From Dokdonia sp. Dokd-P16 (GTDB lineage Bacteria > Bacteroidota > Bacteroidia > Flavobacteriales > Flavobacteriaceae), in contig NZ_CP029151.1 in NCBI RefSeq assembly GCF_003095655.1, positions 2,975,001-3,039,000 on the forward strand: 64,000 nt of DNA, given 5' to 3'. Positions 3,837 through 61,641 of this stretch are shown here, piece after piece. How positions within the stretch are numbered: position 1 is the first letter of the stretch; each line of letters opens with the position of its first letter. The notes beneath the pieces were generated by a model. The model had not been told where the DNA came from. It did no database searches and was given only the letters and a program-made list of their open reading frames with translations. A program made the translations under genes and the position numbers.

Positions 3837-5528
3837 TTAAAACCCTACCGCAGTATCATCTCCACGTCTATCTGCTCCACCTTCTAAGGTGCCGTCAGGA
3901 AGCACTAAAATACCGTCCACTTTTCCAATAACTGGAGATTGCTCTTCATTAGTATTATATCCTTTTTCTTGTAATCCTTTTATAGTTTCAGCATCAAAAC
4001 TATTTGGTTCAAACAATACAACATCTGGTAGCCACTGGTGGTGGAAGCGTGGAGCATTAACCGCTTCTTGCATAGTCATGCCGTATTCATGGACGTTAAG
4101 TATCGTTTGCAGTACAGATGTGATAATCGTAGAACCTCCAGGAGTTCCTACGGTCATCCAGAACTCCCCATCCTTTTCTACTAGGGTAGGAGTCATACTT
4201 GATAGCATACGCTTACCTGGTGCAATCTTATTAGCTTCGGCACCTATGAGGCCAAACATGTTAGGTACTCCAGGTTTGCTAGAAAAATCGTCCATTTCAT
4301 TATTTAAAAAGAAACCTATCTCGTCTACATATAATTTTGATCCGTAAGCACCGTTAAGCGTTGTTGTCACAGCGATTGCATTACCGTACTGATCTATCGC
4401 ACTGTAGTGTGTAGTTTCCATACTTTCATAGCCTGGTAACTTCCCGTGGCTCATATCGCTTGACTTTGTGGCGGTATCCCAAGAAAAAGTATCCATTCTG
4501 TTTTTTGCATACTCGTCAGAGAGTAATGTTTTTAGCGGAATTTCTACAAAGTCGGGATCACCTAGATAAAAGCTACGATCTGCATAGGCACGTCGCTCAG
4601 CTTCGGTAAGTAGCTGGATGCTTTCTACTGTATTATGTCCATATTGTGAGATATCATAAGGTTCAATCATCTGCATGATTTCAGATAAGCAAACACCACC
4701 AGAACTAGGAGGGCTCATGGAAATAATCTTTAGGTTATCATATTCAAAAGTTACTGGAGTGCGCCATTTTGCTTCGTAAGCAGCAAGATCTTCCATTGTT
4801 ATAATTCCGCCTTTTGATTGTAGGTAGTTCACTAACTTCTGTCCAGTCTCTCCTTTGTAAAATTCATCTTTACCATTTTCGACAATACGCTCTAGTGTTT
4901 TTGCTAGCGATTCATTTTTGAGGGTAGACATTTTCGCGAAAGCATTTGCATATAAAATACTATCTCCATTGAGCTCAATAAATTTCTCGCGCAACGCGTC
5001 AAATCGTTTTGCTTGATTTTCTGTAACCACATAACCATTGCGGGCAAGATCTATTACCGGTTGTAAAATCTGGGACATAGGTAAAGAGCCAAATTTCTCA
5101 TGTACGGCAAACATTCCAGCAAGACCTCCAGGAACGCCTACAGCAAGACTTCCTTCTGTGCTTAAGTTAGGGATTACATTACCATCTTCATCAAGGTACA
5201 TATCGTGCGTGGCGGCTGCGGGAGCCATCTCTCTATAATCAAGGGCGCCTATCTCTCCATCCTTAGTGCGATATACTAGAAAACCACCACCACCCAGACT
5301 TCCTGCAAAAGGATAAGCCACGTTAAGCGCCATATCTGTTGCAATCATTGCGTCAAAAACATTACCGCCTTGCTCCATAATTTCTGATCCTATGCGTGAG
5401 GCTTCTTCACGAGCAGAAACTACCATAGCTTTTTGTGTAATTAATCCATACACGGGCTCAGGAGCAGGTGTTTCTGTCTTGCACGTTATAAATAAGATAG
5501 GAGAGAGGAGTAATAGTAGTTTTTTCAT
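3837..5528 (-). CDS. ggt: Gamma-glutamyltransferase (lipoprotein)
   Basis: 563 aa, full length for the family. It cleaves gamma-glutamyl bonds of glutathione and related peptides, or transfers the glutamyl group, on the outside of the inner membrane or in the periplasm. The N-terminus is a lipoprotein signal with lipobox cysteine Cys16 (LFITC). The autocatalytic processing site is seen as E-T-T-H-Y-S at 371-376, where Thr372 would become the N-terminal nucleophile of the small subunit. The oxyanion and substrate-loop motifs LSSMTPT and GTPGGSTI are also present. A copy of the genome palindrome lies in the coding sequence and encodes AFAK (196-199). It is monocistronic: the next gene upstream starts 33 bp away on the same strand but is functionally unrelated. 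Confidence 0.93.
   Translation of the reverse strand: MKKLLLLLSPILFITCKTETPAPEPVYGLITQKAMVVSAREEASRIGSEIMEQGGNVFDAMIATDMALNVAYPFAGSLGGGGFLVYRTKDGEIGALDYREMAPAAATHDMYLDEDGNVIPNLSTEGSLAVGVPGGLAGMFAVHEKFGSLPMSQILQPVIDLARNGYVVTENQAKRFDALREKFIELNGDSILYANAFAKMSTLKNESLAKTLERIVENGKDEFYKGETGQKLVNYLQSKGGIITMEDLAAYEAKWRTPVTFEYDNLKIISMSPPSSGGVCLSEIMQMIEPYDISQYGHNTVESIQLLTEAERRAYADRSFYLGDPDFVEIPLKTLLSDEYAKNRMDTFSWDTATKSSDMSHGKLPGYESMETTHYSAIDQYGNAIAVTTTLNGAYGSKLYVDEIGFFLNNEMDDFSSKPGVPNMFGLIGAEANKIAPGKRMLSSMTPTLVEKDGEFWMTVGTPGGSTIITSVLQTILNVHEYGMTMQEAVNAPRFHHQWLPDVVLFEPNSFDAETIKGLQEKGYNTNEEQSPVIGKVDGILVLPDGTLEGGADRRGDDTAVGF
4932..4943. repeat. Palindrome copy 1, inside ggt
   Basis: TTTCGCGAAAGC, core plus one arm of the recurrent palindrome. 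It is read in the ggt frame as A-F-A-K. The left outer arm has decayed. Confidence 0.75.
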
Positions 5529-5561
5529 GTAGTTGAATTTTCTAACGTAAATATATTAAAC

Positions 5562-6146
5562 TTAAAGTTCTTCTAGTTTTAATGCAACAAAGGCTTGTAA
5601 TTCTTTAAAGAAGCGTGTGAACTCATCTTCAAAGGCTTCATAATGTTCGGCTAGGTCTTCTATGGCTCTATCCATCGCCACGCGACGTTTTGTGCGTATA
5701 TTCATATTATAGAGTACTGTGCCTATACCTTCCATAGTAGCATAGCTAAGTAGCCAGTTTTGCTCTATCATAGGGATCATCATTTTCTGAATACGGCTCG
5801 TAAGCAGGTGGTGATGGTCTTGTAATAGTTTGTAAAAGTCACCTACATAGATATCAAGTGGTGCGCTGTGGTATTGTTGCCAGTTTTTGGCAAGAAAGTG
5901 ATCATAAATAATATCTACTATCACACCAGAGTAGTGACCATACTTTGCGTGCAGGCGTTTTGTACTCTGCTTTACAATAGGGTGACTATCTGTGTAGCTA
6001 TCTATCCAGCGATGCACGAGTATACCTCGCTGTATATCATCACTATACTTGAGGTACTTTTTACCTTTTATACCATCTGCCATAAAGTTGCCTATAGTTT
6101 CCATAGGTAAGCCGTCAGTAAGGTAAATGTGTGCGAGAAAATTCAT
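5562..6146 (-). CDS. Acyl carrier protein phosphodiesterase family protein
   Basis: 194 aa, essentially the length of E. coli AcpH. That family removes the 4'-phosphopantetheine arm from holo-ACP in the cytoplasm. The N-terminus MNFLAHIYL followed by GNFMADGIKG (about 19-28) and RGILVHRWID with TDSHP (about 41-57) are the conserved metal-binding HD-like blocks of this family, with IYDHFLAKNW following. The start ATG is the only one compatible with the conserved NFLAH start. It shares no operon partner of obvious related function. I am confident of family membership; activity is inferred. Confidence 0.87.
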   Translation of the reverse strand: MNFLAHIYLTDGLPMETIGNFMADGIKGKKYLKYSDDIQRGILVHRWIDSYTDSHPIVKQSTKRLHAKYGHYSGVIVDIIYDHFLAKNWQQYHSAPLDIYVGDFYKLLQDHHHLLTSRIQKMMIPMIEQNWLLSYATMEGIGTVLYNMNIRTKRRVAMDRAIEDLAEHYEAFEDEFTRFFKELQAFVALKLEEL

Positions 6147-6278: not shown

Positions 6279-6298
6279 TACGCTTTCGCGAAAGCGTA
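6279..6298. repeat. Palindrome copy 2, intergenic, upstream of glmM
   Basis: TACGCTTTCGCGAAAGCGTA, a perfect 20-base palindrome ending 14 bases before the glmM ATG. It would lie in the 5' untranslated region, close to the ribosome-binding area. Confidence 0.85.
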
Positions 6299-8204: not shown

Positions 8205-9710
8205 ATGAAAACATTAAATCCTATTAAGTCTAGCGGTAAACTAGAGAATTACTTTACACGCTTTCGCGAAAACATTGTAGGTGTTGATCAATACTTTAAC
8301 TCACCTTACGGCACCCAGCGATTACTATATACAGATTGGACAGCTTCTGGGAGACTGTATGGTCCTATAGAAAATAAAATGACACGTGATTTTGGTCCCT
8401 ATGTGGCAAATACACATACCGAGACTACTGTCTCAGGTACTGCAATGACCATGAGTTATCATAAAGCCAAGCACATCATAAAAGAGCACGTAAATGCAGA
8501 TGAGAATGATGTACTCATTGTAGGTGGTAATGGTATGACGGGAATGATCAATAAATTCCAACGCATACTTGGGTTAAAAGTTCCTGAGAATATAAAAAAG
8601 TTTGTAACCGTACCAGAGGAGATAAAACCTATTGTTTTTATCTCTCATATGGAGCATCATAGTAATCAAACAACTTGGCTAGAAACTACAGCAAAGGTTG
8701 TAGTAGTTCCTGCTAAGGAGGATGGGCTTTTCTGTATAGAGATGTTTGAAAACGAACTTCTTAAATATGAGAATCATCCGTTTAAAATTGCTTCTATAAC
8801 AGCGTGTAGCAATGTAACAGGTATCCAAACTCCGTATCATGATGTAGCAAGATTAATGCACGCACACGGCGGATTGTGTTTTGTAGATTTTGCTTGCAGT
8901 GCTCCTTATGTGAATATAGATATGCATCCAGCAAATCCCGAAGAACGCCTAGATGCGATTTTCTTTTCTCCACACAAGTTTTTAGGAGGTCCAGGATCTT
9001 CAGGTGTATTGATTTTTAATAAAGGATTATATAAAAATGTGGTGCCAGATAATCCAGGCGGAGGTACCGTTTCTTGGACAAATCCTTGGGGAGAGCACAA
9101 GTATATAGATAATATAGAAGAGCGTGAAGATGGCGGTACACCAGGGTTTTTACAAACCATACGTACAGCTCTGTCTATAAAACTTAAAGAAGAAATGGGC
9201 GTTAGTAATATTGTGAGCCGTGAGCACGAGCTCATAGATATTATCTGGAAAGAATTAAATGAAGTGCCAGATATTAATATTCTTGCTAGCAATCATAAAG
9301 ATAGGCTAGGGGTGATTTCATTTTACATAAATGATTTACACTTTAACCTTGCGGTAAAAATGCTTAATGATCGTTTTGGAGTGCAAACTCGAGGTGGATG
9401 CAGTTGTGCAGGTACTTACGGTCATTATTTACTCGACGTAGATCAAAAAACATCTAATTCACTTACCTGCGAGATCGACGCTGGTAATTTAATTCACAAA
9501 CCAGGCTGGATTAGAATGTCTATACATCCTACACTTACTAACGAGGAGGTTTTATATGCTTGCAATGCTATTAAAGAACTTGCATTAAACCACAGAGAAT
9601 GGTCTCAAGATTATCATTACCAACCATACTCAAACGAGTACTTACATAAAGACGATAAGGCTACCTCTTTGAGTCGTAGTACTGCTATAGACTCTTGGTT
9701 TGAATTTTAA
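8205..9710 (+). CDS. Class V PLP aminotransferase / cysteine-desulfurase-like enzyme
   Basis: 501 aa from the ATG at 8205; an in-frame TTG at 8199 is possible but lies only two codons upstream and is less likely. Fold type I PLP enzyme of aminotransferase class V. The Schiff-base lysine is Lys258 in FFSPHKFLGGPG, and HMEHHSN (148-154) supplies the ring-stacking histidine region. A cysteine-containing loop RGGCSCAGTYG near residue 395 resembles the catalytic cysteine loop of CsdA/SufS-type enzymes. It is about 90 residues longer than SufS and has no suf or isc neighbours, so the substrate is unknown. A palindrome copy in the 5' part encodes RFREN (19-23). Confidence 0.78.
   Translation: MKTLNPIKSSGKLENYFTRFRENIVGVDQYFNSPYGTQRLLYTDWTASGRLYGPIENKMTRDFGPYVANTHTETTVSGTAMTMSYHKAKHIIKEHVNADENDVLIVGGNGMTGMINKFQRILGLKVPENIKKFVTVPEEIKPIVFISHMEHHSNQTTWLETTAKVVVVPAKEDGLFCIEMFENELLKYENHPFKIASITACSNVTGIQTPYHDVARLMHAHGGLCFVDFACSAPYVNIDMHPANPEERLDAIFFSPHKFLGGPGSSGVLIFNKGLYKNVVPDNPGGGTVSWTNPWGEHKYIDNIEEREDGGTPGFLQTIRTALSIKLKEEMGVSNIVSREHELIDIIWKELNEVPDINILASNHKDRLGVISFYINDLHFNLAVKMLNDRFGVQTRGGCSCAGTYGHYLLDVDQKTSNSLTCEIDAGNLIHKPGWIRMSIHPTLTNEEVLYACNAIKELALNHREWSQDYHYQPYSNEYLHKDDKATSLSRSTAIDSWFEF
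8258..8271. repeat. Palindrome copy 3, inside the class V aminotransferase
   Basis: ACGCTTTCGCGAAA, left arm and full core; the right arm has diverged. It is read as R-F-R-E-N in the host gene. Confidence 0.7.
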
Positions 9711-12367: not shown

Positions 12368-12385
12368 ACGCTTTCGCGAAAGCGT
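12368..12385. repeat. Palindrome copy 4, intergenic, 3' of rluF
   Basis: ACGCTTTCGCGAAAGCGT, a perfect 18-base palindrome lying between the hairpin terminator and the 3' end of rluF (10 bases after its stop). Confidence 0.85.
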
Positions 12386-13563: not shown

Positions 13564-13577
13564 GCTTTCGCGAAAGC
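13564..13577. repeat. Palindrome copy 5, intergenic between csp and DUF1456
   Basis: GCTTTCGCGAAAGC, perfect 14-base palindrome with one outer arm (TAC) intact and the other changed (TAA). It lies 38 bases upstream of the csp promoter's TTG. Confidence 0.82.
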
Positions 13578-13962: not shown

Positions 13963-15144
13963 CTACAAGTTGACTTTGTTACATTTTATGACCACAAGTG
14001 TTCCATCCTGAAGCGTTGTAAAAAATAAGTAAACGTCGCCTCCATCCTTAATTTTAAGTTTTTTACGTATATCCTCTACTTTCATAGGGAAATTACGGGT
14101 GGTGATATTTGCCTTATTGATTTGCAACTCTTTTGCTACTTTCTTTGAGTAGGGTAGTACCTCAAGTATTTCAAAGCGTCTTCCAGCAAATTCTTTTAGC
14201 TCTGCTGATGTGTAGAGATGTGAGTGCTCATGTAGTTTATCTACTTGAAAATGATCACAAACCCAATGAAAAGCTCCGCTTTTCATAAGTGCGGCATTGG
14301 GCTCATATAAATATTCTTGAGGCGCTGCATACGTGGGTGTAAATTCAAAAATAGCAGTATAATCAAATGTAAGTATAGGATCTTCAGTACCTAAGTTAAC
14401 AACGGTAACTTTAGGAATACTCATTTTCTTAGATGAGAGTTTCCATAGTAATTCTTTAACCTCATTTTTAAGTGAAACGATATGTATTTCGGCAACATGC
14501 TGTAGTTCTTCTAGTCCTGCAGATATATCTAATAATGGCGCCGTTTTAATCCACAAGCTATCACACTTAGAAAGCAATAGATTTTTATATAGAGGAACAT
14601 TAGGTAAGCAATCTTTGAGCATAAATACTTTCCCTTTGGCGTCTGTTCGTCTTCCTGGGTCTAAGAAGATGGTATCGAACTTCTGCTCAGTATTAGAAAA
14701 GAAATCTATGGAGTCACCTATTATAAAATCAATATTAGATTGCTGTAGTGTTTGCGCATTATTTTTCGCGAAAGCGGAAAGTTCGCTATTCATCTCAATG
14801 TGTGTAACATGCTTTGCTATTTGCGCAAAGTAAAAAGCATCGATACCAAAACCTCCAGTTCCATCCACAATATGGTTACCTTCCATAAGGCTCGCTTTAT
14901 AGCGAGCTGTAGCTTGTGAAGAGGTTTGCTCTAGATTGAGTTTAGGTGGAAATAAAATCCCACCTGTTTCATACCACAAGGGTAATTTACCCTTTGCTTT
15001 GCGTTTGCCTTCTAGCTGTTGCGCCAATTCTTGAACGCTTATTTCCTTAAACGGGCTTCCTTTAAGAATAAAAGAATGTAGCGGAGTGTGCTCATGAAGC
15101 TTCAAATAATCAAGCACTTCAGGCTCTAAAAGCATGGTGTTCAT
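13963..15144 (-). CDS. THUMP-like SAM-dependent methyltransferase
   Basis: 393 aa. A Rossmann methyltransferase domain shows SAM motif I D-G-T-G-G-F-G (94-100), the acidic residue of motif II (HIEMN, ~115-119) and motif IV-like D-P-G-R-R (162-166). The C-terminal third fits the THUMP-like RNA-binding domain of Bacteroidota proteins annotated as class I SAM methyltransferases. The target is likely RNA but unproven. The stop of the upstream permease gene overlaps its start by one base, so they form one operon with translational coupling. A palindrome copy encodes SAFAKN (123-128). Confidence 0.8.
   Translation of the reverse strand: MNTMLLEPEVLDYLKLHEHTPLHSFILKGSPFKEISVQELAQQLEGKRKAKGKLPLWYETGGILFPPKLNLEQTSSQATARYKASLMEGNHIVDGTGGFGIDAFYFAQIAKHVTHIEMNSELSAFAKNNAQTLQQSNIDFIIGDSIDFFSNTEQKFDTIFLDPGRRTDAKGKVFMLKDCLPNVPLYKNLLLSKCDSLWIKTAPLLDISAGLEELQHVAEIHIVSLKNEVKELLWKLSSKKMSIPKVTVVNLGTEDPILTFDYTAIFEFTPTYAAPQEYLYEPNAALMKSGAFHWVCDHFQVDKLHEHSHLYTSAELKEFAGRRFEILEVLPYSKKVAKELQINKANITTRNFPMKVEDIRKKLKIKDGGDVYLFFTTLQDGTLVVIKCNKVNL
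14764..14776. repeat. Palindrome copy 6, inside the THUMP-like methyltransferase gene
   Basis: TTTCGCGAAAGCG: core plus one full arm, read as A-F-A-K in the host gene. Confidence 0.75.
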
Positions 15145-21478: not shown

Positions 21479-21753
21479 ATGCTCTTAATTTCCTTTGCAC
21501 ATTGTTATAAACTCCTTATTGCTACTTTACTTCTCAGAATATTCAAAAAAAGCTGGAAGTATATGGTATTACGCTTTCGCGAAAGCATAATAATAACCCA
21601 TCAAAAAAGAGAAATTATAAATTTTACGATGAATTAATTGGCTATTTGCTAATGAGGTTAACTCATAAACAAGTGTAATTATGAGATTCTGAAATTTAAC
21701 AACCCTATATAGTAAGTGAAAAGTGATATGTACTTTTAATAAAAATAATACCC
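21479..21753. promoter_or_regulatory. Leader region of the PEP carboxylase gene
   Basis: The 324-base gap between the M16 operon and ppc holds the terminator above, a palindrome copy, and AT-rich sequence with direct AT repeats. A near-match -7 element (TACTTTTA, 24 bases before the ATG) may be the ppc promoter. No gene-like frame seen. Confidence 0.4.
21573..21586. repeat. Palindrome copy 8, intergenic upstream of ppc
   Basis: GCTTTCGCGAAAGC, with outer TTAC / ATAA arms nearly complementary (one mismatch). It lies about 170 bases before ppc. Confidence 0.82.
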
Positions 21754-39300: not shown

Positions 39301-39324
39301 CGATTTGCTAGAAATTTGATATAA

Positions 39325-40719: not shown

Positions 40720-40866
40720 CCATTAATGCTTAGATTTCTATTTACTCTCAATAACAGATTAATGGCGTTATTTATTTGTTTATTCTTTATAGAAAGGGAA
40801 ATTTGTTGTGATAGTCTATTTAAAAAAGAATAGAAACATAACTTCAGTTATATAAAAACCATTTAG

Positions 40867-41880: not shown

Positions 41881-41888
41881 TTAATAAT

Positions 41889-44749: not shown

Positions 44750-44753
44750 AATT

Positions 44754-45773: not shown

Positions 45774-45806
45774 TACATATTGAGACTAAGTAAAATATAA
45801 GTAACT

Positions 45807-48166: not shown

Positions 48167-48168
48167 AT

Positions 48169-50152: not shown

Positions 50153-50156
50153 TAGA

Positions 50157-50915: not shown

Positions 50916-50944
50916 TAATTGTATGTAAAGATGAAGTTATGAAA

Positions 50945-51853
50945 TCAATTTATTTGTCTTTTTAACTTTTGTATTATCTCTTGATTAATCTCACGTTGCA
51001 CTACATTTATGTTTGAGTTTAAATGATGAGTTTTAGTAGTACCTATCATTGCAGCACTTACATATTGATTCTCTGTCACAAATTTTAGGGCTATTTCAGC
51101 TCCTTTCCAGTCTGGATAAGAGTTGATGTATCTATATTTATAACCTTTAAATAATTGCGGTCTATAATTCTTTAATACCCTTAGTAGGTACCAAACATCA
51201 CTCAATCCTCTTATTTTAAATATATCATTGCTGTACAATCCATGAGCCATTGGGCTTTTTATCAATACACCTATGTTTTTTTTGGCGGCTTTCTTAATTT
51301 GATTATCTGCTTCTTGTTCTAGTATATTATAAGTCAACATCACTGTGTCAAAAAAGTCAAGATTAAGTACATGATCTAGAACTTTACCATCGCAAGAGAC
51401 ACCTATATTTCTTATCTTTCCCTGTAATTTAAATATTTCAAGTGTTTCAAATACATCATCTGTTAAATGCTTTATTTGCGGGCTATGTAATTGAAACAAA
51501 TCAATGTATTCCAGATTAAGTTTCCTCAACGATGTTTCTAGGGACTCTGTAAGTTGTTTTCTAGAATAATCTTTTTTGTAAGTATTTCCTTTGACGTGTA
51601 CTGTTCCTCCCTTAGTAGCTATTACTAATTTATCTCTGGGAACGTCTTTAATAAGATTTCCTAATCTCACTTCTGCATTACCAAAAGAATAAGCACTACC
51701 AGTATCAAAAAAGTTTATACCCTTATTGTAAGCTTCATGTAAAACCTTACTTGCTTGGTCTTCATTAAATGCCTTCATACCTAAAATTCCTCCTATTCCT
51801 AATCCTAGTTTAGAAATCTTTAAATCTGTTGATCCTAGTTGTTTTAATTCCAT
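50945..51853 (-). CDS. Aldo/keto reductase
   Basis: 302 aa from the ATG at 51853; a TTG at 51874 is in frame but adds seven residues outside the family start (MELKQLGSTDLKISKLGLG). NADPH-dependent TIM barrel with catalytic tetrad Asp50, Tyr55, Lys81 (TKGG) and His123 (QLHSPQ). The only gene inside the locus on the opposite strand, tail-to-tail with the glycosyltransferase. It could reduce a keto-sugar or aldehyde; a general detoxifying role is just as likely. Confidence 0.87.
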   Translation of the reverse strand: MELKQLGSTDLKISKLGLGIGGILGMKAFNEDQASKVLHEAYNKGINFFDTGSAYSFGNAEVRLGNLIKDVPRDKLVIATKGGTVHVKGNTYKKDYSRKQLTESLETSLRKLNLEYIDLFQLHSPQIKHLTDDVFETLEIFKLQGKIRNIGVSCDGKVLDHVLNLDFFDTVMLTYNILEQEADNQIKKAAKKNIGVLIKSPMAHGLYSNDIFKIRGLSDVWYLLRVLKNYRPQLFKGYKYRYINSYPDWKGAEIALKFVTENQYVSAAMIGTTKTHHLNSNINVVQREINQEIIQKLKRQIN

Positions 51854-52131
51854 AGTAATTTTACTTCTTGACAAAAATCCGTAATATATATGAATAAACC
51901 ATTAAATTTAAGTGATTCCATTATTATTGATTTTATAACCTACATTAGTTTCTTACTCTCTATTTTTTTTTAACCTCAAATTATTATCTAGCATTTTTAG
52001 AAATACAAATAATTAAATATGTATTTATGCTTTATAGTCAAAGTATCCATATATTTTTGTCATTCTTTTTAATTCTTTAAATCTATTAGAGAATACCTAG
52101 ATTACAAGAGTTTAATAATTCGGTTTAAAAA
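51854..52131. promoter_or_regulatory. Divergent intergenic region inside the polysaccharide locus
   Basis: 278 very AT-rich bases between the reductase and the WecA-like gene, which should hold divergent promoters. No matching TTG/TAnnTTTG pair, hairpin or frame was found. Confidence 0.35.
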
Positions 52132-53094
52132 ATGACATATATTTTAATTTTTATAATTCTAGCAATACTTTCCTACGTCTATCTAAAATTAGCAGATAGA
52201 TTCAATATCATAGATAAACCTAATCACAGAAGTTCACATACTCAGATTACTATAAGAGGTGGTGGTATCATATTCTACATAGCATTGCTTATTTTTTTCA
52301 TTTCCAGTGGTTTTGTATACCCATATTTATTTATCGGCACAACTATTATTGCATTGGTAAGTTTCATAGACGATTTAAGGCCACAACCACCAGTATTACG
52401 TTTGCCAGTTCAATTTATTGCTATTGCTTTGGCTATTTATCAGGTAAGTTTAGACTTCCCTTTAATATCATTAATTCTATTATTGATAGTAGGTGTAGGG
52501 TTTGTAAATGCATTTAATTTTATGGATGGGATCAATGGGATAACCGGAATGTATTCCATAGTCATCGTAAGTTTTTTACTATTCTTTAATATTTATGAAG
52601 CTACTTTTGTAAATGTAGACTTACTGTATTATATACTTTTTTCTCTAGTTGTTTTTGGTTTTTATAATTTCAGAAAAAAGGCGCTGTTTTTTTCTGGAGA
52701 TGTAGGAAGTATTTCTATAGCGGTGGTTTTGTTTTTTCTAGTCTATCAATTTTACTTTACATTAAAAGCACCAGTAGCTATTTTGCTAGTTGCAGTTTAT
52801 GGAGTAGATACCGTACTAACAATCATACGCAGAATTAAGATGAAAGAAAAAATTTCAGAAGCGCATAGACATCATCTTTATCAATTATTTGTTGATTCAA
52901 AACGGTTTTCTCATATTACTACTTCATTAATATATAGTGTAATTCAATTATTATGCTGCATCATTGTGTATTACAGTTTTCAGTTGGGATTATGGGAGCA
53001 ATTATTAATTATTACACTAGTTTTACTTTCGATTACCTTTTGTTATGTGTTCTTAGTTCGTTACTTTCTTAAAATGCGTGTGAAAGCATTATAA
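52132..53094 (+). CDS. Polyprenyl-phosphate GlcNAc/HexNAc-1-phosphate transferase (WecA/WbpL-like)
   Basis: 320 aa, about 10 membrane segments. Starts the repeat unit by moving a sugar-1-phosphate onto undecaprenyl phosphate. Conserved loops: SFIDDLRPQ (Asp-Asp, about 79-87), NAFNFMDGINGITG (about 128-141) and HRHHLYQLF (about 243-251). The sister aminotransferase and dehydratase that follow suggest its substrate is a 4-amino-4,6-dideoxy-HexNAc, as in P. aeruginosa WbpL. Starts the second sub-operon of the locus. Confidence 0.88.
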   Translation: MTYILIFIILAILSYVYLKLADRFNIIDKPNHRSSHTQITIRGGGIIFYIALLIFFISSGFVYPYLFIGTTIIALVSFIDDLRPQPPVLRLPVQFIAIALAIYQVSLDFPLISLILLLIVGVGFVNAFNFMDGINGITGMYSIVIVSFLLFFNIYEATFVNVDLLYYILFSLVVFGFYNFRKKALFFSGDVGSISIAVVLFFLVYQFYFTLKAPVAILLVAVYGVDTVLTIIRRIKMKEKISEAHRHHLYQLFVDSKRFSHITTSLIYSVIQLLCCIIVYYSFQLGLWEQLLIITLVLLSITFCYVFLVRYFLKMRVKAL

Positions 53095-53097
53095 AAT

Positions 53098-54228
53098 ATG
53101 AAAAAACGTATTTATTTATCACCGCCAATTTATGGTGATCAGACCGTTTTATCTACACCATCAAGTATAAATGTTTATGATGATATCTATAAAGATATTG
53201 ATGGTTTTGAGAAAATAGTCAAAGATTATTTAAATACGGATAAGCAGGTTGTTGCTCTCAATTCTGGTACATCAGCAATTCATATGGCTTTAATTCTTGC
53301 AGGTGTTGAAGAAGATGATTTTGTACTGTGTCAATCTATGACTTTTGTTGCCTGTGCAAACCCTATTCTATATCAAAGAGCAAAACCAGTGTTTGTTGGT
53401 AGTGAAGAAAGTACCTGGAATATGTGTCCAGAAGCTTTAGAACTAGCTTACCTAGAATGCGTTAAAAAAGGAAAAATCCCCAAAGCTATAATTGTAACCA
53501 GCCTTTATGGTATGTCCAGTAATATGGATGCTATTGGAAGCTTTGCTAGAAAAAACAGTATAAAGTTAATTGAGGACAGTGCTGAAGCTTTAGGTGGAGC
53601 GTATAGAAATGAAAAACTGTCCACTATAGGAGATTACGGAATTTTGTCTTTTAATTTAAATAAAATAATCACAACAGCTGGTGGTGGGATTTTAGTTGTA
53701 AACTCAATAGAAGAGAAGCAAAAAGTACTTCATCTAGCAACTCAGGCCAAAACAAATTTACCATACTATCATCATGACACCTTAGGATACAACTATAGGT
53801 TAGGTCATATAAATGCAGCCCTAGGAGTACTACAATTTAAAGAATTAGAAAATAACCTTAAGAAAAGAAAGGCCAACCATAAATTCTATGAAGAGCTATT
53901 TAAACATATTAGTGGAATATATGTCCATAAAGAACCCGATGATCATTTTATTTCCAACCACTGGCTCAGTGCTATTCTAGTAGATCCTTTAAAAACTGGT
54001 GGAATTACTCGAGAAGATATCAGACTTTTCTTAGAAAAAGACAATATAGAGTCCAGACCATTATGGAAGCCTATGCACATGCAACCGCTTTATAAGAAAT
54101 TTTCATATTACGGAAACACCTTAGCTGAAAAGTTATTTAATCATGGTTTGTGTCTTCCTTCTGGTTCTAATCTTTCTGATAACGATAAAGGTAGAATAGA
54201 AAATGTTATCTTTAACCTTTTCAATTAA
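53098..54228 (+). CDS. DegT/DnrJ-type aminotransferase (PglE-like)
   Basis: 376 aa PLP enzyme. The start MKKRIYLSPPIYGDQ and the PLP Lys189 in SFNLNKIITTAGGG are like UDP-4-keto-6-deoxy-GlcNAc aminotransferases (PglE type). It would make UDP-4-amino-4,6-dideoxy-GlcNAc from the product of the next gene. No PglD-type acetyltransferase is beside it; the tandem GNAT upstream could serve. Three bases after the WecA-like stop. Confidence 0.85.
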   Translation: MKKRIYLSPPIYGDQTVLSTPSSINVYDDIYKDIDGFEKIVKDYLNTDKQVVALNSGTSAIHMALILAGVEEDDFVLCQSMTFVACANPILYQRAKPVFVGSEESTWNMCPEALELAYLECVKKGKIPKAIIVTSLYGMSSNMDAIGSFARKNSIKLIEDSAEALGGAYRNEKLSTIGDYGILSFNLNKIITTAGGGILVVNSIEEKQKVLHLATQAKTNLPYYHHDTLGYNYRLGHINAALGVLQFKELENNLKKRKANHKFYEELFKHISGIYVHKEPDDHFISNHWLSAILVDPLKTGGITREDIRLFLEKDNIESRPLWKPMHMQPLYKKFSYYGNTLAEKLFNHGLCLPSGSNLSDNDKGRIENVIFNLFN

Positions 54229-54236
54229 ATGTATAG

Positions 54237-56234
54237 ATGTTCAAACGATTAATAGAAGCCATAAATCGCCTATTTTCAGAGGAGAATAGGTTAGATATTC
54301 GGAAACTGCGCTATCTACCTAGATGGGCGGTATTGTTTATTGATATTTTTCTAGTCTTTGTTGCGCTTATCACTACTTATTATTTGCTTGAAGGTATTAA
54401 TATTAAGTCGTTATTTACGCTAGACTTAAATAAACAGATAAGTATTGTAATAGGTATTAATTTTATTTTTTTATTACTTTTTAAGACATATGCAGGTTTA
54501 ATAAGACATTCATCATTTATGGATGCTCTTAAATTACTCTTTGCTTCTGGAGCCACCTTTGTTTCTTTAATATTTATTAATATCCTAAGTAAAATTTTTC
54601 TGGGTGAGAAAATATTTTTGACGACAGGTATATTTTTATTTGCACTATTATCCTTTACTGCTCAATTCATTTTCAGGCTAGTAATAAAACAGCTGTATGA
54701 ATCATTTAAAATTGCACAGAAAGAAGAGGAGCTTATTAAAGCAATCATCGTAGGGATTGATGACGGTGCAATTTCTATTGCGGCAGCACTAGATATAGAA
54801 CATCCTCAGCGTTTTATTATTAAAGGTTTTGTTTCAAAAAGACAGAATAAAAGTTTAAGAATACTTGGTAAACCTGTATTAGAACTTAACGATGATATTA
54901 GTTTACTTACAAATAAATTAGATGCCAGTGCAATCATTTTTGCAGGTAACACAATGAATGCTGAAGAGCGTTTTTTATTAGTTAAAGACTGCTTAGAAAA
55001 CGATATTAAGGTTTATAATTCCCCCCTTGTAATTAACTGGAGTGAAAAAACAACAGTAACAGATCAATTAAAGTCTTTGCAAATTGAAGATTTATTGAAT
55101 AGAGATCCTATAAAATTAAACGATAAGGATAAGGCCAAAAAGATTCAAGGTAAAACAGTGTTAGTGACAGGAGGTGCTGGTTCAATAGGTAGTGAAATAG
55201 CAAGGCAAGTTGCTTCTTATAATCCTTCAAAGCTTATAGTTTTAGATCAAGCCGAGTCACCCTTACATAATTTAAGTCTTGAGCTTCTTGGGCTGTATCC
55301 TGATATCGATTTTGAATTTACAATTTGTGATGTAGCAAACCGAAATAGATTAAGAGTTTTATTTGATACTTTTAAAATTGATATTATTTACCATGCTGCT
55401 GCCTATAAGCACGTGCCCTTAATGGAGAATAATCCTTCTGAAGCTATATTAACTAATATATATGGCACTAAAAATTTGGCAGACATAGCTGCCAAGCATG
55501 AAGTAGGCTATTTTGTAATGGTCAGTACAGACAAAGCAGTGAATCCAACCAATGTAATGGGTGCTTCTAAAAGAGCAGCTGAAATGTATGTGCAATCTAA
55601 ATACTTTGACGCTATTCAAGCTGGATCTTCAAAGACCAAATTTATAACAACTCGATTTGGGAATGTATTAGGGTCTAATGGGTCTGTAGTACCTCTATTT
55701 AAGAAGCAAATTAAGCAAGGTGGTCCTGTCACTATTACGCATCCTGACATCATACGTTATTTTATGACCATACCAGAAGCTTGCCAACTTGTTCTTGAAG
55801 CAGGTACGATGGGTAAAGGTGGTGAGATTTTTATTTTTGATATGGGGGAACCTGTTAGAATTATGGATTTAGCAGAAAAAATGATAAAGCTTGCTGGTTT
55901 TACGGTAGGCGAGGACATTGAAATAAAAATTACAGGTCTACGTCCAGGTGAGAAGTTATATGAAGAATTGCTAAGTGATGAAAGCAAGACGCTCGCGACT
56001 CATCATGAAAAAATAATGATCAGTGAGGATATAAGTGCTAATTATGATTATGTAAATACAGTAATTAGTAAAATAGTAAAAGCAGCTATTAAAAATAATA
56101 ATAATATAAGTGTTGCTAAATTAAAATCATTGGTTCCTGAATTTAAAAGTAAAAATTCTGAATATGAAGTGTTAGATATTAATGTACATGATATTGTACC
56201 TGAAATAAACCCTTCTCAAAACATTGTGCAATAG
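54237..56234 (+). CDS. Membrane-bound UDP-HexNAc 4,6-dehydratase (PglF/WbpM/CapD family)
   Basis: 665 aa. Four N-terminal membrane segments (about 30-150), a nucleotide-binding-like middle domain (about 165-290) and a C-terminal SDR (from 305). NAD site GGAGSIGSE near 312-320; HAAAYKHVPLMENNPSEA and STDKAVNPTNVMGASKRAAEMY carry the Met-Asp-Lys active site of the retaining class. Makes UDP-2-acetamido-4-keto-2,6-dideoxyhexose for the aminotransferase. Retaining stereochemistry, so it is distinct from PseB. Confidence 0.9.
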   Translation: MFKRLIEAINRLFSEENRLDIRKLRYLPRWAVLFIDIFLVFVALITTYYLLEGINIKSLFTLDLNKQISIVIGINFIFLLLFKTYAGLIRHSSFMDALKLLFASGATFVSLIFINILSKIFLGEKIFLTTGIFLFALLSFTAQFIFRLVIKQLYESFKIAQKEEELIKAIIVGIDDGAISIAAALDIEHPQRFIIKGFVSKRQNKSLRILGKPVLELNDDISLLTNKLDASAIIFAGNTMNAEERFLLVKDCLENDIKVYNSPLVINWSEKTTVTDQLKSLQIEDLLNRDPIKLNDKDKAKKIQGKTVLVTGGAGSIGSEIARQVASYNPSKLIVLDQAESPLHNLSLELLGLYPDIDFEFTICDVANRNRLRVLFDTFKIDIIYHAAAYKHVPLMENNPSEAILTNIYGTKNLADIAAKHEVGYFVMVSTDKAVNPTNVMGASKRAAEMYVQSKYFDAIQAGSSKTKFITTRFGNVLGSNGSVVPLFKKQIKQGGPVTITHPDIIRYFMTIPEACQLVLEAGTMGKGGEIFIFDMGEPVRIMDLAEKMIKLAGFTVGEDIEIKITGLRPGEKLYEELLSDESKTLATHHEKIMISEDISANYDYVNTVISKIVKAAIKNNNNISVAKLKSLVPEFKSKNSEYEVLDINVHDIVPEINPSQNIVQ

Positions 56235-56254
56235 TCAGTAGTATAGTATTTTTG
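56224..56254 (+). promoter_or_regulatory. Internal promoter of the export operon
   Basis: TTG (56224-56226), 20-base spacer, TATTTTTG (56247-56254), matching the Bacteroidota consensus well. The -33 lies over the end of the dehydratase gene; the Wza-like ATG is 18 bases after the -7. Confidence 0.6.
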
Positions 56255-56272
56255 CACTCCAAATTTTTATAT

Positions 56273-57046
56273 ATGTCTATTAAAGAATTGAGTAGAACTT
56301 TCTTAACATTGCTAGCTTGTGTGGCTTTTTGCTCATCTTGTATATCAAAGAAAGAGGTGCTATATTTTCAAGATATTGAAACCTTATCAGGACAAGATCA
56401 AAATACTAATTACAATACGGTGATACGTCCAGACGACCTATTATCTATAACAGTTTCTTCTCAAGATCCTGAATCTGTAGCTATATTTAATCCAGTAGCA
56501 GGTGCTGCAAATGCTTTAAGAACAACGAATGATCGTCTTGGGACCTACTTAGTAGACAAGAATGGTAATATAGAATTTCCTTACTTAGGGACATTAGCTA
56601 TTGCAAACAAGACAAGAATTGAAGCAATACAACTATTACGAGATCGTATTAGAGAATTTGCTAAAGAAGCTGTTATAGATTTAAGGATTTTAAATTTTTC
56701 TATATCTGTACTTGGAGAAGTGCAACGTCCAGGGACATTTACCATTCCTAATGAAAGAATTACAGTACTTGAAGCTTTAGGGCTTGCTGGGGATATGACA
56801 ATTTTTGGTGAGCGTAAAACAGTTAAAATTATTAGAGAAGAAGAAGGAGTTAAAACATACGGTGAGCTTGATTTTACTAGTATTGATTTAGTTAATTCAC
56901 CTTTTTACTATCTTCAGCAAAATGATGTTATCATCGTTTCTCCAAATAAAGCTCAAATACAAAGTGGTGCCTTTAATAGAAATTCAACCATATTCATTTC
57001 TATAGCAGGTATTGTAATATCTGTGTTAACTATTCTTACTCGTTAA
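56273..57046 (+). CDS. Polysaccharide export outer membrane lipoprotein (Wza-like)
   Basis: 257 aa from the ATG at 56273; a TTG at 56252 is in frame but overlaps the -7 element. Lipoprotein signal with Cys20 or Cys23 (FCSSCISKK). Polysaccharide-export (Poly_export) part IRPDDLLSITVSSQDPES (about 49-66), then SLBB-type strands (RPGTFTIPNERITVLEALGLAGD). A C-terminal hydrophobic helix (TIFISIAGIVISVLTIL) may form the outer-membrane barrel as in Wza, though the protein is shorter. Ten bases before the kinase gene. Confidence 0.87.
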   Translation: MSIKELSRTFLTLLACVAFCSSCISKKEVLYFQDIETLSGQDQNTNYNTVIRPDDLLSITVSSQDPESVAIFNPVAGAANALRTTNDRLGTYLVDKNGNIEFPYLGTLAIANKTRIEAIQLLRDRIREFAKEAVIDLRILNFSISVLGEVQRPGTFTIPNERITVLEALGLAGDMTIFGERKTVKIIREEEGVKTYGELDFTSIDLVNSPFYYLQQNDVIIVSPNKAQIQSGAFNRNSTIFISIAGIVISVLTILTR

Positions 57047-57055
57047 TTATTCTTC

Positions 57056-59443
57056 ATGCAACAACCTAATACTCAAATATCACAAGAAGACGATTTTAAC
57101 CTTAAGGATGTATTGAATCAATACTTAAAATTTTGGCCTTGGTTTTTACTCTCAGCTATAATCTTTATATCACTTGCTTTCTTATATGTACGTTATAGCA
57201 CGTATGTTTATCAATCACAGGCAACCATATTAATTAAAGACTCAAATAACGGTGCTTTATCTGAACTCGCAGCTTTTGAAGATTTAGGTTTAGGCGGTGG
57301 AGGATTAAGTAAGTCTGATTTTGAAAACGAAATTGAAATCATTAAGTCAAAAAGGTTAATTTCTCAGGTAGTTGATGATTTCCAATTAAATGTGAAGTAC
57401 TATAGAGAAGGTAATGTTAAATCTTCAGAAGTTTTTAAGAATAGTGAATTTACAGTGGAAGTACTAAATTTGAAAGATTCTCTCAAATCTTTTATGAGTT
57501 CTGTTTACATACGACAAATTTCAGGCAATACTTTTGAAATTAAAAAAAGAGAAGATTCAAAAGGTGAAATAAAAAATTATGGAACGCCACTACCTTTAGA
57601 TTTCGGAGAAATTGTAGTTTTTCCGAATAAATTGTATAAAGAGGATGGCATTGAGAAAGGAACGGACTTTACATTAGTAACCATAAGCGATAAAGCTTCA
57701 GCTATTACAAGTCTAAGAAACAACCTCTCTATTCAGGCAGTAAATAAAAATAGTAGTGTAATACAATTATCTTTTAATTCATCTGCACCTAATAAGTCTG
57801 AAGCAATACTAGATGGTCTTGTAGATGCTTATAATAATGATGCTATACTAGATAGAAATTTAGTGTCAGCAAATACCGCTCGCTTCATTGATAGAAGACT
57901 AGAAATTATTACCAGTGAATTAGATTCTGTTGAGACTAAGAATGTTGATTTTAGAGAAGATAGACGAGTAACAGATATTGCCACAGAGGGTCAAATTTTC
58001 TTGCAAAGCGCCACAGAACTACAAAAGAAACAACTAGAACTGTCTACCAAAATTGGTTTGGCAAATTCTATGAAGGATTATTTAAGTAATGAGGGATCTG
58101 AAGAATTACTTCCTGTTAATTTAGGCTTATCAGGAGATGGTTTAGCACAAGCAATTCAAAACTATAATGGTTTACTTCTAGAAAAAGAACGTTTATTAAA
58201 AAGTTCTACACCAGCAAACCCTGTGATTATAGCACTAAATGATCAAATTGATCAATTAAAGGGTAGTATTGGTTCTAGTTTAAATAATATTACTACCTCA
58301 TTAGAGATAGAAGATCGTGATTTAAGAAGACAAAGTGGACGTATAGGAGGTAAGATAGCTTCAATACCAAGCTTAACGAAGGCTGCTCGTGATATCATGC
58401 GCCAACAAGAAATCAAAGAGGCACTGTATCTATACTTACTTCAAAAAAGAGAAGAAACTGCAATTTCTTTGGCAGTTACCACTCCTAAAGCGAAAATAGT
58501 CGATAGAGCATATAGTTTAAAGACACCTATTTCTCCCAAACCTAAGATTGTGTACTTAGGGGCTTTAGTATTAGGTCTGTTAATTCCATTTGGTTTTGTG
58601 TATGTAAAAACGCTTTTAGATACTAAAATACATAACCGTCTTGATGTTGAAAAGGAAGTTCCTGGTGTACCAATTCTAGGTGAGGTTCCTATTATTGATA
58701 GCAAAGAGAGTGAAACGATTACAAGTAACGATAGGTCTGTACTTGCAGAAGCTTTTAGAATTCTTAGAACTAATTTAGGGTATTTTATTAAAAGTACAGA
58801 CGGAGGTCTTGGAAATACTATTTTTGTAACATCAACCATAAAAGGTGAAGGAAAAACTTTTGTAGCTTATAATCTAGCGCTGTCACTTACGAGTACAGGT
58901 AAAAAGGTATTACTTGTTGGGGCAGATATAAGAAATCCACAACTACATAGATATATTGATAAAAATGAATGGACTATAGGATTATCAGAATATTTATTTG
59001 ATACTGAAGTTGATATCAAATCTATTACAAATGAAGTTTTCAATGGTGATGAACATTTTGATTTAATACTATCTGGACGTATTCCACCTAATCCAGCTGA
59101 ATTATTAATGAATGGTCGTTTTGATAAACTAATTGAGGATGTTCGTGATGATTACGATTATGTGATTGTAGATACAGCACCTACGCTTTTAGTAACTGAT
59201 ACACTACTCATAAGCCAAAAGGCTGATATGACTGTCTATGTATGTAGAGCCGAATATACTGAGACGAATCTGCTACAGTATCCTAATGAACTTTATAAGG
59301 ATGGTAAACTCAAGAACATAGCATTTGCAATCAATGGAATAAAGCTAACTAACTTTGGTTATGGAAGTAAGTATGGCTATGGTTACGGCCAAGATAAACC
59401 ATCATTAATGAATAGAATTAAAAATAAGGTGGGACTGAGTTAG
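57056..59443 (+). CDS. Tyrosine-protein kinase / chain-length regulator (Wzc-like)
   Basis: 795 aa. Wzz-type N-terminal domain with two membrane segments (about 31-52 and 497-519) around a long coiled-coil periplasmic part, then a cytosolic BY-kinase domain: Walker A GEGKTF (about 596-601), Walker A' LVGADIRNP (about 621-629), and Walker B VIVDTAP (about 702-708). A C-terminal tyrosine cluster (YGSKYGYGYG, near 775-784) is the autophosphorylation site. Controls chain length and export of the polysaccharide with the Wza-like protein, and is reversed by the phosphatase gene that follows on the opposite strand. Confidence 0.93.
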   Translation: MQQPNTQISQEDDFNLKDVLNQYLKFWPWFLLSAIIFISLAFLYVRYSTYVYQSQATILIKDSNNGALSELAAFEDLGLGGGGLSKSDFENEIEIIKSKRLISQVVDDFQLNVKYYREGNVKSSEVFKNSEFTVEVLNLKDSLKSFMSSVYIRQISGNTFEIKKREDSKGEIKNYGTPLPLDFGEIVVFPNKLYKEDGIEKGTDFTLVTISDKASAITSLRNNLSIQAVNKNSSVIQLSFNSSAPNKSEAILDGLVDAYNNDAILDRNLVSANTARFIDRRLEIITSELDSVETKNVDFREDRRVTDIATEGQIFLQSATELQKKQLELSTKIGLANSMKDYLSNEGSEELLPVNLGLSGDGLAQAIQNYNGLLLEKERLLKSSTPANPVIIALNDQIDQLKGSIGSSLNNITTSLEIEDRDLRRQSGRIGGKIASIPSLTKAARDIMRQQEIKEALYLYLLQKREETAISLAVTTPKAKIVDRAYSLKTPISPKPKIVYLGALVLGLLIPFGFVYVKTLLDTKIHNRLDVEKEVPGVPILGEVPIIDSKESETITSNDRSVLAEAFRILRTNLGYFIKSTDGGLGNTIFVTSTIKGEGKTFVAYNLALSLTSTGKKVLLVGADIRNPQLHRYIDKNEWTIGLSEYLFDTEVDIKSITNEVFNGDEHFDLILSGRIPPNPAELLMNGRFDKLIEDVRDDYDYVIVDTAPTLLVTDTLLISQKADMTVYVCRAEYTETNLLQYPNELYKDGKLKNIAFAINGIKLTNFGYGSKYGYGYGQDKPSLMNRIKNKVGLS

Positions 59444-59461
59444 AACATCTGATTTTAATAG

Positions 59462-59500
59462 AAAAGAGGCAAAAACTTACATTAAGTTTTTGCCTCTTTT
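59462..59500. terminator. Bidirectional terminator between the kinase and phosphatase genes
   Basis: 17-base perfect stem AAAAGAGGCAAAAACTT / AAGTTTTTGCCTCTTTT with a 5-base loop (ACATT); serves both convergent genes. Confidence 0.88.
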
Positions 59501-59513
59501 AGTTTGTAGCAAG

Positions 59514-60236
59514 TTACCTAAATGTCTTTGTTGTGCTCAAGCATATATCTTCTAATGCTGAACTATACTTGGCAGAAATTTGCATCTTTTCAATTTTCTC
59601 AAGATGATCAATTCTATGCGTATCTAAACCTATAAAGTCAAAAAGGTTATTTTTTAATAAGTCATAAGCTACCTTTTGTACAGATTCACCATAGTGATTT
59701 GACAAGGAAAGTCCATTGAGTTGAAGGAGACATCCTTTCTTTTTGAAGTCTCTATAAATTTCGGGGCGCTTGTGATAAAATGCATAACGCTCGGGATGTG
59801 CTAGAATAGGTGTATATCCCTGAGAACCAATTTTAAAAATTTGTTTAAAAAGATTTTCTGGTGGTTGAAAAAAAGACATTTCCACTAGTACAAAATTATC
59901 GATTAGAGGTATAAGCTCTTTTTTTTCCAAATAGGTAGTAAATACTTCATCCAGCATATACTCAGAAGAGTATGATAAATCAATGCCCTGTGTGTTTTCA
60001 ATGCTTTCAAACGCATTGAAAATGGTTGTAGGTGTATTATCATACATACCCCCCATAGTATGTGGAGTAGCAATAACCTTATCACAACCTAAACTCTTAT
60101 ATTTTTTTAAAAGTTCCTCGCTTTTGGCTATAGTTTTAGCTCCATCATCGATTCCCGGTAATACATGACAGTGCATCTCTGGTGTACCTGACCAAATATC
60201 TAGGAATGATTTCTTTTTGTTAAAAATTCCAAACAT
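59514..60236 (-). CDS. CpsB/YwqE-type PHP tyrosine phosphatase
   Basis: 240 aa. PHP metal-binding phosphatase: EMHCHVLPGIDDGAK (20-34), ATPHTMGGMYDN (about 57-68), LAHPERY (~140-146) and GLDTHRIDHL (about 203-212) carry the His/Asp ligands of the trinuclear site. Removes phosphate from the kinase tyrosine cluster; the convergent layout with the kinase supports this. Unlike Wzb, it is not of the low-molecular-weight type, which is usual for this phylum. Confidence 0.9.
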   Translation of the reverse strand: MFGIFNKKKSFLDIWSGTPEMHCHVLPGIDDGAKTIAKSEELLKKYKSLGCDKVIATPHTMGGMYDNTPTTIFNAFESIENTQGIDLSYSSEYMLDEVFTTYLEKKELIPLIDNFVLVEMSFFQPPENLFKQIFKIGSQGYTPILAHPERYAFYHKRPEIYRDFKKKGCLLQLNGLSLSNHYGESVQKVAYDLLKNNLFDFIGLDTHRIDHLEKIEKMQISAKYSSALEDICLSTTKTFR

Positions 60237-60282
60237 GAGTCAAAAATACTTCAAATATTTTAGAAACTAGTATCTTCATTCT

Positions 60283-61641
60283 ATGATTAAAAAGTTGATA
60301 AGTGTATTACTTCACATTTTTATTTTCACTTCCAGTATCACTGCGCAAGAAATATTAAATTTTTCTGGTTCTCTTGGCTCTATAGGCTTTATATCTAGTG
60401 ATAGACTTCCTTTTTGGAGTTTTACTAATAGTCAAGGTTTCTTAAGTGAGTCAAGTAGTTATGGGGTTTCCGCTTTCGCGAAAGCGGACTATAGCATTTC
60501 AAATACTCATATACTCACTCTAGGTACAGGTGCTTTTATATCTGACGGATTTGATAATAATATAAGGAGAAGTGATTTGTATTTGGAATATAAAAATCAA
60601 TGGATTCAATTGACTGCAGGTGCAAAACAGCTTACTCCAGAGACATACAATCTTTCTACTATAAATAATAACATTTTACAAACTGGAAATGCACGACCAC
60701 TTCCCGGAATTATAATTTCCAATACGAAACCAATTAAATTATCAGAGAAATTTTCTTTAGATGCAGCGTTAGCTCATTATAATCTGAATGATGATCGCAG
60801 TACGAAAAATGCGCAGATTCATTATAAGATGATTAGGGCCAATTGGGCTATAAATGAATCAAGTTCACTATTAGTAGCGTTAAGACATTATGTTCAATGG
60901 GGAGGTAGGCTTTCTGACGGAACTAAGCTTCCTAGTGACTTAAAAGCATTTGGTAGAGTTTTCATAGGAGCCAATGGTGGTGATATAGATAACCCTAACG
61001 AGGCTATAAATGCATTAGGAAATCATTTAGGCAGTTATAGTGTTGACTATAAAAGAACACTTAACAGTGGAATATTAGCGCTCTATCATCAATCATTGTT
61101 TGATGATAGATCCGGAAGGGAATTAAATAATTTTCCTGATGGTGTTTGGGGTGTAAACTATCTCCCTAGAGGAAGTATAATGATTAAGTCTATCTTATAT
61201 GAATATATACAGACCGTATCACAAAGTGGAGCACCTAGGCCTACTGAAGGTAGTGGCCAACAAAGTGGTGGTGATAATTACTTTAGCAATAGTATATATA
61301 GATCAGGATGGACATATGAAGGGGCTGTTATAGGACTTCCCTTTCTTAATCCTTTTGGTAATGCAACGGCGCCAAGCAATAACAGAATGATAGGTCATCA
61401 TCTAGGTATAGCGGGATCAATAGGGAAGATAGACTATGCTATTAAGGGATCTTATATTCAGAATCTAGGAACATACACTTCACCTATCAAACCTAGACAA
61501 CAAGCGCTATATAGTCATGCAACGTTTTCTTATGATACCAATATTCTCGGAATTATCAATCTTTATGTAGGAGCAGATTACATTAACGATTTCTCTAATG
61601 CTACGAGTATTGGAATAGGATATAAGTATAACTTAGAGTAA
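60283..61641 (+). CDS. Capsule assembly Wzi-like outer membrane protein
   Basis: 452 aa with a signal peptide (SVLLHIFIFTSSITAQ), then a beta-barrel-like pattern of alternating strands to the C-terminus. The start of the mature part (FSGSLGSIGFISSDRLPFWSFTNSQGF) matches the capsule assembly Wzi family, which anchors polysaccharide to the outer surface. Lies last in the locus. A perfect 18-base palindrome in the N-terminal third encodes SAFAKAD. Divergent from the phosphatase gene. Confidence 0.87.
   Translation: MIKKLISVLLHIFIFTSSITAQEILNFSGSLGSIGFISSDRLPFWSFTNSQGFLSESSSYGVSAFAKADYSISNTHILTLGTGAFISDGFDNNIRRSDLYLEYKNQWIQLTAGAKQLTPETYNLSTINNNILQTGNARPLPGIIISNTKPIKLSEKFSLDAALAHYNLNDDRSTKNAQIHYKMIRANWAINESSSLLVALRHYVQWGGRLSDGTKLPSDLKAFGRVFIGANGGDIDNPNEAINALGNHLGSYSVDYKRTLNSGILALYHQSLFDDRSGRELNNFPDGVWGVNYLPRGSIMIKSILYEYIQTVSQSGAPRPTEGSGQQSGGDNYFSNSIYRSGWTYEGAVIGLPFLNPFGNATAPSNNRMIGHHLGIAGSIGKIDYAIKGSYIQNLGTYTSPIKPRQQALYSHATFSYDTNILGIINLYVGADYINDFSNATSIGIGYKYNLE
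60470..60487. repeat. Palindrome copy 14, inside the Wzi-like gene
   Basis: CCGCTTTCGCGAAAGCGG, perfect 18-base palindrome with C/G outer bases; read as S-A-F-A-K-A. First copy after the ~18 kb gap. Confidence 0.88.

Follow-up and report, generated by a model that had tools for sequence, protein, structure and literature searches.

The genome of Dokdonia sp. Dokd-P16 (Flavobacteriaceae) carries, hundreds of times over, a GC-centred palindrome with the core TTTCGCGAAA, extended to the 14-mer GCTTTCGCGAAAGC where both of its GC arms are intact. We followed it up from a 64-kb window, the whole stretch of DNA analysed here (positions 2,975,001 to 3,039,000 of a single-contig genome of 3,623,447 bases), and find that the palindrome is real, strict and maintained. 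The original prediction had listed three functional options without commitment; among these the evidence agrees best with a binding or DNA-uptake site, given strict conservation, spacing, the absence of polarity, oriented half-sites and a second word elsewhere in the family, and a link to restriction-modification (judged from three methyltransferase families) or a very small mobile palindrome is disfavoured. We tentatively favour the reading that the palindrome is a dispersed self-recognition word, which by analogy would work as uptake sequences do in Neisseriaceae and Pasteurellaceae.

Abundance, strictness and conservation

The window holds 14 exact copies of the core, from 4932 to 60483, compared with a mean of 0.06 and a maximum of 1 in dinucleotide shuffles, and 10 exact copies of the 14-mer; both counts are those first reported, as is the perfect inverted repeat of up to 20 bases (lengths in the window run from 10 to 20). 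Three decayed copies had been claimed in addition, which is borne out in part: two copies (24790 and 42597) have one to two mismatches and a broken core; three other places (16536, 29144 and 37224) differ by three mismatches, where chance gives ~1.5 matches at three or fewer. The palindrome is not confined to the window: the 3.62-Mb chromosome has 808 copies of the 14-mer (reversed control, 0), and 18 of 18 Dokdonia genomes, the one under study included and some of them incomplete, have 369–905. Over 864 kb of own sequence the core was found 239 times, for an order-2 Markov expectation of 0.91. Neither outcome named beforehand as a refutation, a count close to the Markov expectation or restriction to this window, was therefore observed.

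Strictness was assessed in 35% of the genome, sampled as 60 stretches of 20 kb together with the window (1,264,000 bases in total); the counts of genic and intergenic sites below come from this sample too. Perfect 14-mers number 255 in it, copies with a single mismatch 47 and copies with two 91, and the corresponding means for up to 30 control palindromes with shuffled arms are 0.0, 0.1 and 1.5. Both GC arms are present at 255 of the 367 cores, one arm at 111 and neither at 1, and of the 54 copies of CGCTTTCGCGAAAGCG with one mismatch in the first 864 kb, 46 deviate at the outermost base. Occurrence of the palindrome is all-or-none.

Conservation was gauged by aligning the own sites to four Dokdonia genomes across the anchor region. 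Cores are kept at 11 of 12 sites at 9% divergence and at 12 of 12 at 17%; by construction of the count, kept cores have zero substitutions at the ten core positions. At kept sites positions 6–7 change at 0–0.17, and the flanks past the arms change at about the background rate. Core losses are single changes in three cases (two in genome G001 and one in G007), and the remainder are deletions or block divergence. Identity among palindrome sites ends at ~22 bp.

Biased flanks and oriented half-sites

Compositional bias extends well past the palindrome itself. At positions 11–26 from the centre the 5′ side contains 7.9% C, compared with 18% in the genome and 18.0% beside 591 other palindromic 10-mers holding CG or GC, and the 3′ side mirrors it and is poor in G. 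The strong depletion beside intact arms stops at about position 26, followed by a weaker one (12–15% C) to about 35, and the bias is present within genes and between genes, in the palindrome-bearing genus g8 and, weakly, in g149. These ~16-nt biased flanks on each side are new here. In 74 one-armed copies the side with the intact arm is biased (G 0.07–0.09) and the other side less so (C 0.11–0.14), and because the bias is found chiefly next to the intact arm we read the palindrome as a pair of oriented half-sites that overlap. An extended hairpin was considered and rejected, there being no consistent excess of pairing past position 10.

Placement and spacing

The sites lie both between and within genes, as first described, with 123 of the 255 perfect sites outside open reading frames (ORFs, called by a simple longest-ORF rule) and 132 inside. 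ORFs make up 88% of the DNA, and the intergenic excess in the remaining 12% is pronounced (P = 7e-45). Inside ORFs, 77 of the 132 sites are in the frame GCT TTC GCG AAA (phase 0; P = 4e-9). The earlier statement that the palindrome is not part of terminators agrees with the printed contexts, which have no regular T tract, and a terminator role was rejected, sites being no denser in convergent intergenic DNA (16 in 25.9 kb) than in other intergenic DNA (81 in 88.9 kb of co-directional and 26 in 30.9 kb of divergent DNA).

Spacing is over-dispersed: 35 gaps are shorter than 1 kb, where 88 ± 7 are expected at random, and 0 of 500 simulations gave so low a number. Such rarity of close spacing is as expected if one site per fragment suffices. 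Relative to a putative origin and terminus, taken from the GC skew of the sample, site density is 0.220–0.236 per kb at 0.2 to 1 Mb from the origin, 0.154–0.180 beyond 1 Mb and 0.213 within 200 kb of the terminus.

These data bear on whether the palindrome is itself a small mobile element of the REP/RAYT (repetitive extragenic palindrome and its associated tyrosine transposase) or miniature inverted-repeat transposable element type. It is a short dispersed palindrome, as are REPs and REPINs, and one intergenic copy corresponds to a 17-nt gap in another Dokdonia genome. However, the Y1 transposase family PF01797 is without a match in the own genome, decayed copies are few, and many copies are genic and prefer one reading frame. 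At three genic sites the other Dokdonia differ across the whole homologous block with almost no change in length, and the short extent of identity among sites likewise argues against mobility. We regard this explanation as extremely improbable.

Distribution in the family and a second word

Abundance of the palindrome is sporadic in the family. At least one copy of the 14-mer was found in 73 of 298 Flavobacteriaceae genomes (187 genera), and hundreds in five genomes from three genera: Dokdonia (g1; 808 and 857), g8 (578 and 664) and g149 (one genome, 408). The next-highest genomes have 19 and 16 copies and both belong to g61; a draw from the phylum gave 24 of 392 genomes with a copy, with a maximum of 6 apart from the own genome. 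The nearest named relatives at the anchor gene are four Dokdonia loci (81–99% protein identity), and the tree of this gene, a single-gene tree, groups g8 with g61 (100/100) and apart from Dokdonia; g149 has no close ortholog of this gene (best 36%). Comparable palindromes were absent from other genera among named loci of at least 14 kb (116 best-word entries, z above 10 in Dokdonia loci only); among pooled genus sets, the highest 10-mer z apart from that of Dokdonia (221) was 12.4, in Flavobacterium.

Top words were also scanned in 40-kb samples of 18 genera, and some members of the family have a different, non-palindromic word. The top word of G077, a g61 genome in which 80 kb hold no TTTCGCGAAA, is CTTCGGAAA(T), with 16 copies of the 9-mer. 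Genome-wide, CTTCGGAAAT occurs 297+308 times in G077 (605 copies; reversed control 8+13) and 167+178 times in G241 (8+6). It reaches at least 140 copies in 11 of 298 genomes from 8 genera (counted from the table), where reversed controls never exceed ~53; the counts are 3 in the own genome (control 14), 12 in G003 (17) and 1 in G206 (6). In 80-kb samples the CTTCGGAAA sites are 6 sense, 6 antisense and 4 intergenic in G077, and 7 sense and 3 antisense in G241. A codon artefact was rejected because TCG is the rarest or nearly the rarest serine codon in both genomes and the sites stand in both orientations. One-mismatch forms (25 and 31) are not clearly above control words (17–34), so the perfect copies stand alone. 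Past the word, A is more frequent than background at +5 to +7, +9 and +13 to +17 (~46–62% vs 34%; 26 sites). CTTTCGCGAAAGCGTAA can be aligned by eye with CTTCGGAAATAGTAAAG, which suggests that the word and the palindrome may have a common core.

Other words surfaced in the same samples. TTCAGAA/TTCTGAA is 2–3 times above the order-3 expectation in G079, G077 and G241, and TTTCGGCTTT is another top word in G241. Dense words, possibly gene or array repeats, are AGGCTAAAAT in G095 (20 per 40 kb, L343–L344) and CGTTGGTTCC in G043 (34 per 40 kb, L363–L364).

The balance between strands is informative for a Chi-like recombination hotspot, in which G/T-rich 5′ flanks would serve RecA loading. The 5′ flank of each half-site, read on the strand of that half-site, is indeed rich in G and T, and E. 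coli has a similar number of Chi sites. The strand bias of Chi is missing, however: one-armed copies show no replication polarity, with 58 on the leading and 53 on the lagging strand, and the 16 sampled copies of CTTCGGAAA in G077 fall 8 on each strand, their replichore being not known. To our knowledge, known Chi sites are also all far shorter than the Dokdonia word, and this explanation appears improbable.

The family genomes also allow the proposed restriction-modification link to be weighed, in particular a highly iterated palindrome (HIP) upheld by an orphan DNA methyltransferase together with mismatch repair, which is Elhai's model for cyanobacterial HIP1. HIP1, its methyltransferase model and deviations at the outermost base are described in the relevant parts of PMC4390886. 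The Dokdonia word resembles HIP1 and alternate HIPs in being a highly iterated, abundant, GC-centred palindrome, sporadic in its family and most variable at its outer positions, with single deviations at the outermost base. It differs in being longer (14–22 bp), in a flank bias reaching position 26, and in the methyltransferase complement: the own genome has 0 matches to PF00145, PF01555 and PF02086 (PF02384 and PF07669 not tested), and hence no matching orphan enzyme among these three families. None of the three is above the cut-off in G004, and G206, with 664 copies, has none at all. Matches occur in 22 of 40 genomes searched for PF00145, 7 of 26 for PF01555, 13 of 26 for PF02086 and 8 of 26 for PF01797, the last including the palindrome-bearing g8 genomes G206 and G024; some other palindrome-bearing genomes have one or another of the four, and none of the four is common to all. 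We consider a HIP-like origin very improbable.

Islands and phage-like DNA

Some low-copy genomes bear the palindrome on islands that are related by DNA. Nine stretches were taken around copies in five low-copy genera, and eight are DNA-related to one another (G095:C1, G084:C1, G184:C1, G277:C5 and G026:C18; L155–L159 and L161–L163); the ninth (L160) has no match over 300 bases. The flank bias is seen around these copies. No core was found in other stretches of G095, G084 and G184 (40 kb each). Proteins were scanned for the G084 island alone, which encodes RND efflux proteins, P-type ATPases, MerT, a multicopper oxidase and RteC, and the simplest reading is that the island cargo came from a palindrome-bearing lineage. 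Its 20 proteins, mostly of metal-resistance families plus RteC and one with no family, include no candidate for the machinery, and the island was rejected as its source.

In IMG/VR at least 80 loci carry the palindrome. Among the matches listed there are 85 sites, 53 in loci of at least 45% GC, with no flank bias, and 32 in lower-GC loci, several with the bias. Contig IMGVR_UViG_3300039191_000362 (L185, L202 and L207) encodes phage transposition proteins, which we take to be of the Mu type, a tail sheath and a baseplate hub, and has up to four cores over three stretches that may overlap; its host is presumably palindrome-bearing. Another palindrome-bearing viral contig encodes a head maturation protease and an endolysin.

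Copies in the window

The individual copies are listed in Table 1. The core-free polysaccharide locus would be expected to hold 6.2 cores at the sampled density and has 0 (Poisson P ~0.002). Families were found for 7 of 10 proteins scanned there, among them Polysacc_synt_2, DegT, Glycos_transf_4 and Wzz. Two other repeated words of the own genome are of a different kind: CGATAGCTATCG (13 copies; L087, L112, L117 and L308) lies mostly in arrays of a ~1.2–1.6-kb repeated unit, and CTCTTCGAAGAG (7 copies; L094, L090 and L107) lies inside longer related repeats, with four copies within 800 bases in L094.

Table 1. Palindrome copies and the long core-free stretch in the 64-kb window
Feature	Position	Context
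TTTCGCGAAA core, single intact arm (GAAAGC, + strand)	4932..4941	within gamma-glutamyltranspeptidase gene
20-bp perfect palindrome TACGCTTTCGCGAAAGCGTA	6279..6298	flanked by divergent ORFs
Core, single intact arm (GCTTTC side)	8262..8271	
18-bp palindrome	12368..12385	flanked by convergent ORFs; 17-nt gap there in G001 (L146), part gap in L008
14-bp palindrome	13564..13577	intergenic; kept intact in all six Dokdonia loci aligned at the site
Core, single intact arm	14764..14773	within ORF 13963-15144
16-bp palindrome	17743..17758	within DUF4159 gene; replaced in L007, L008 and L146, length unchanged
14-bp palindrome	21573..21586	intergenic, upstream of PEP (phosphoenolpyruvate) carboxylase gene
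Core, single intact arm	26036..26045	within ORF 25377-26174
16-bp palindrome	32764..32779	intergenic; one change destroys the core in G007
14-bp palindrome	34877..34890	within GDP-mannose dehydratase-like gene
14-bp palindrome	37879..37892	within ORF 37376-38218
20-bp palindrome	39238..39257	intergenic; core lost in G004, and in G001 by single substitution
20-bp palindrome TCCGCTTTCGCGAAAGCGGA	60469..60488	within Wzi-like gene
21 kb with no exact core, one near-miss at 42597	39258..60468	polysaccharide locus

Discussion

The main rival, next after the uptake-like reading and in our judgement unlikely, is a site for a nucleoid or chromosome-organising protein, which would bind as a dimer to a ~52-bp symmetric site at intervals of a few kb, with a part in chromosome shape, segregation or protection. 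A perfect dyad with symmetric flanks, strongest to position 26, is consistent with such a protein, as are peaks of A that recur after about one helical turn in the intergenic arms, the over-dispersed spacing and the raised density near the putative origin. Noc, SlmA and parS sites share the perfect dyad, and those of Noc and parS have TTTC...GAAA half-sites. However, Noc and SlmA sites number in the tens, far below the 808 seen here, and the Dokdonia sites are spread chromosome-wide with many in genes and with half-sites spaced otherwise. Exclusion from the terminus is not clear, one-armed sites are common (111 of 367), and g61 carries a non-palindromic word.

In our judgement uptake-like working best explains the strictness, the spacing, the lack of polarity, the islands and the second word together. 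The unit would be an oriented half-site made up of TTTCGCGAAAGCGTAA and the ~16 G-poor nt after it, and two half-sites overlapping on the core would give a palindrome readable alike from either strand. A putative cognate protein would bind the palindrome on double-stranded DNA, and a surface or periplasmic receptor would prefer fragments with one site. Biased uptake and recombination would then keep sites perfect and spread them to the point where a site is present on most fragments a few kb long. We infer both the binding protein and the link to uptake.

Parallels with known uptake words are considerable. The sections of PMC12616744 that treat uptake sequences name two families as having them and describe their abundance and dialects, as well as the core and biased downstream regions of the uptake signal sequence (USS); dialects of the DNA uptake sequence (DUS) are a subject of PMC3630211, and USS spacing of PMC7811141. 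Like DUS and USS, the Dokdonia palindrome exists in hundreds of near-perfect genic and intergenic copies, with a core plus a one-sided biased flank per oriented unit, absence from a variable locus and words in related genera that may be dialects. It differs in being palindromic, in belonging to another phylum (Bacteroidota) and in the rarity of close pairs; no receptor such as ComP or the predicted ComN/PpdA is known for it (no search aimed at one was made), and an uptake role is suggested by analogy. Riemerella columbina prefers its own DNA and its top repeats are A/T-rich words, according to the portions of PMC7965970 concerned. Literature searches on Dokdonia, on palindromes in Flavobacteria and on uptake sequences in Bacteroidetes yielded no report of such a word in Dokdonia.

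Several observations weigh against an uptake-like role. Known uptake words are oriented and DUS are not palindromic, whereas both arms are intact at most of the Dokdonia cores (255 of 367), and we therefore do not file the palindrome as a DUS or USS. USS are likewise non-palindromic where PMC12616744 characterises them, and the Dokdonia flank is G-poor and A+C-rich rather than the AT tract of USS. For H. influenzae, the spacing results of PMC7811141 place 17% of USS within 30 bp of a neighbouring USS; by comparison close pairs are rare in Dokdonia, although the palindrome amounts to a fused pair. Density rises toward the putative origin (0.264 per kb in the nearest 200 kb), a trend not predicted by an uptake role. 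Core retention drops to 6 of 12 at 22% divergence and 3 of 7 at 27%. Phage-like contigs also bear sites, and the A-rich stretches past CTTCGGAAA come from 26 sites at which the overall 3′ composition is near background.

Whatever its function, the palindrome marks the origin of DNA, as the islands bearing it stand out in other genera. Even as a nucleoid site, a strict and regularly spaced ~52-bp signal in hundreds of copies would point to an unknown DNA-binding protein. If the uptake role is true, Bacteroidota would provide an independent case, and the palindromic form would show directionality to be dispensable. With some reserve, and again by analogy, we suggest that Flavobacteriaceae may possess their own uptake-sequence-like dialect system, with CTTCGGAAAT in many genera and a bidirectional palindrome in Dokdonia and two other genera. 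Genome-wide self-recognition words would then have a third, so far undescribed lineage, and one that belongs to another phylum.

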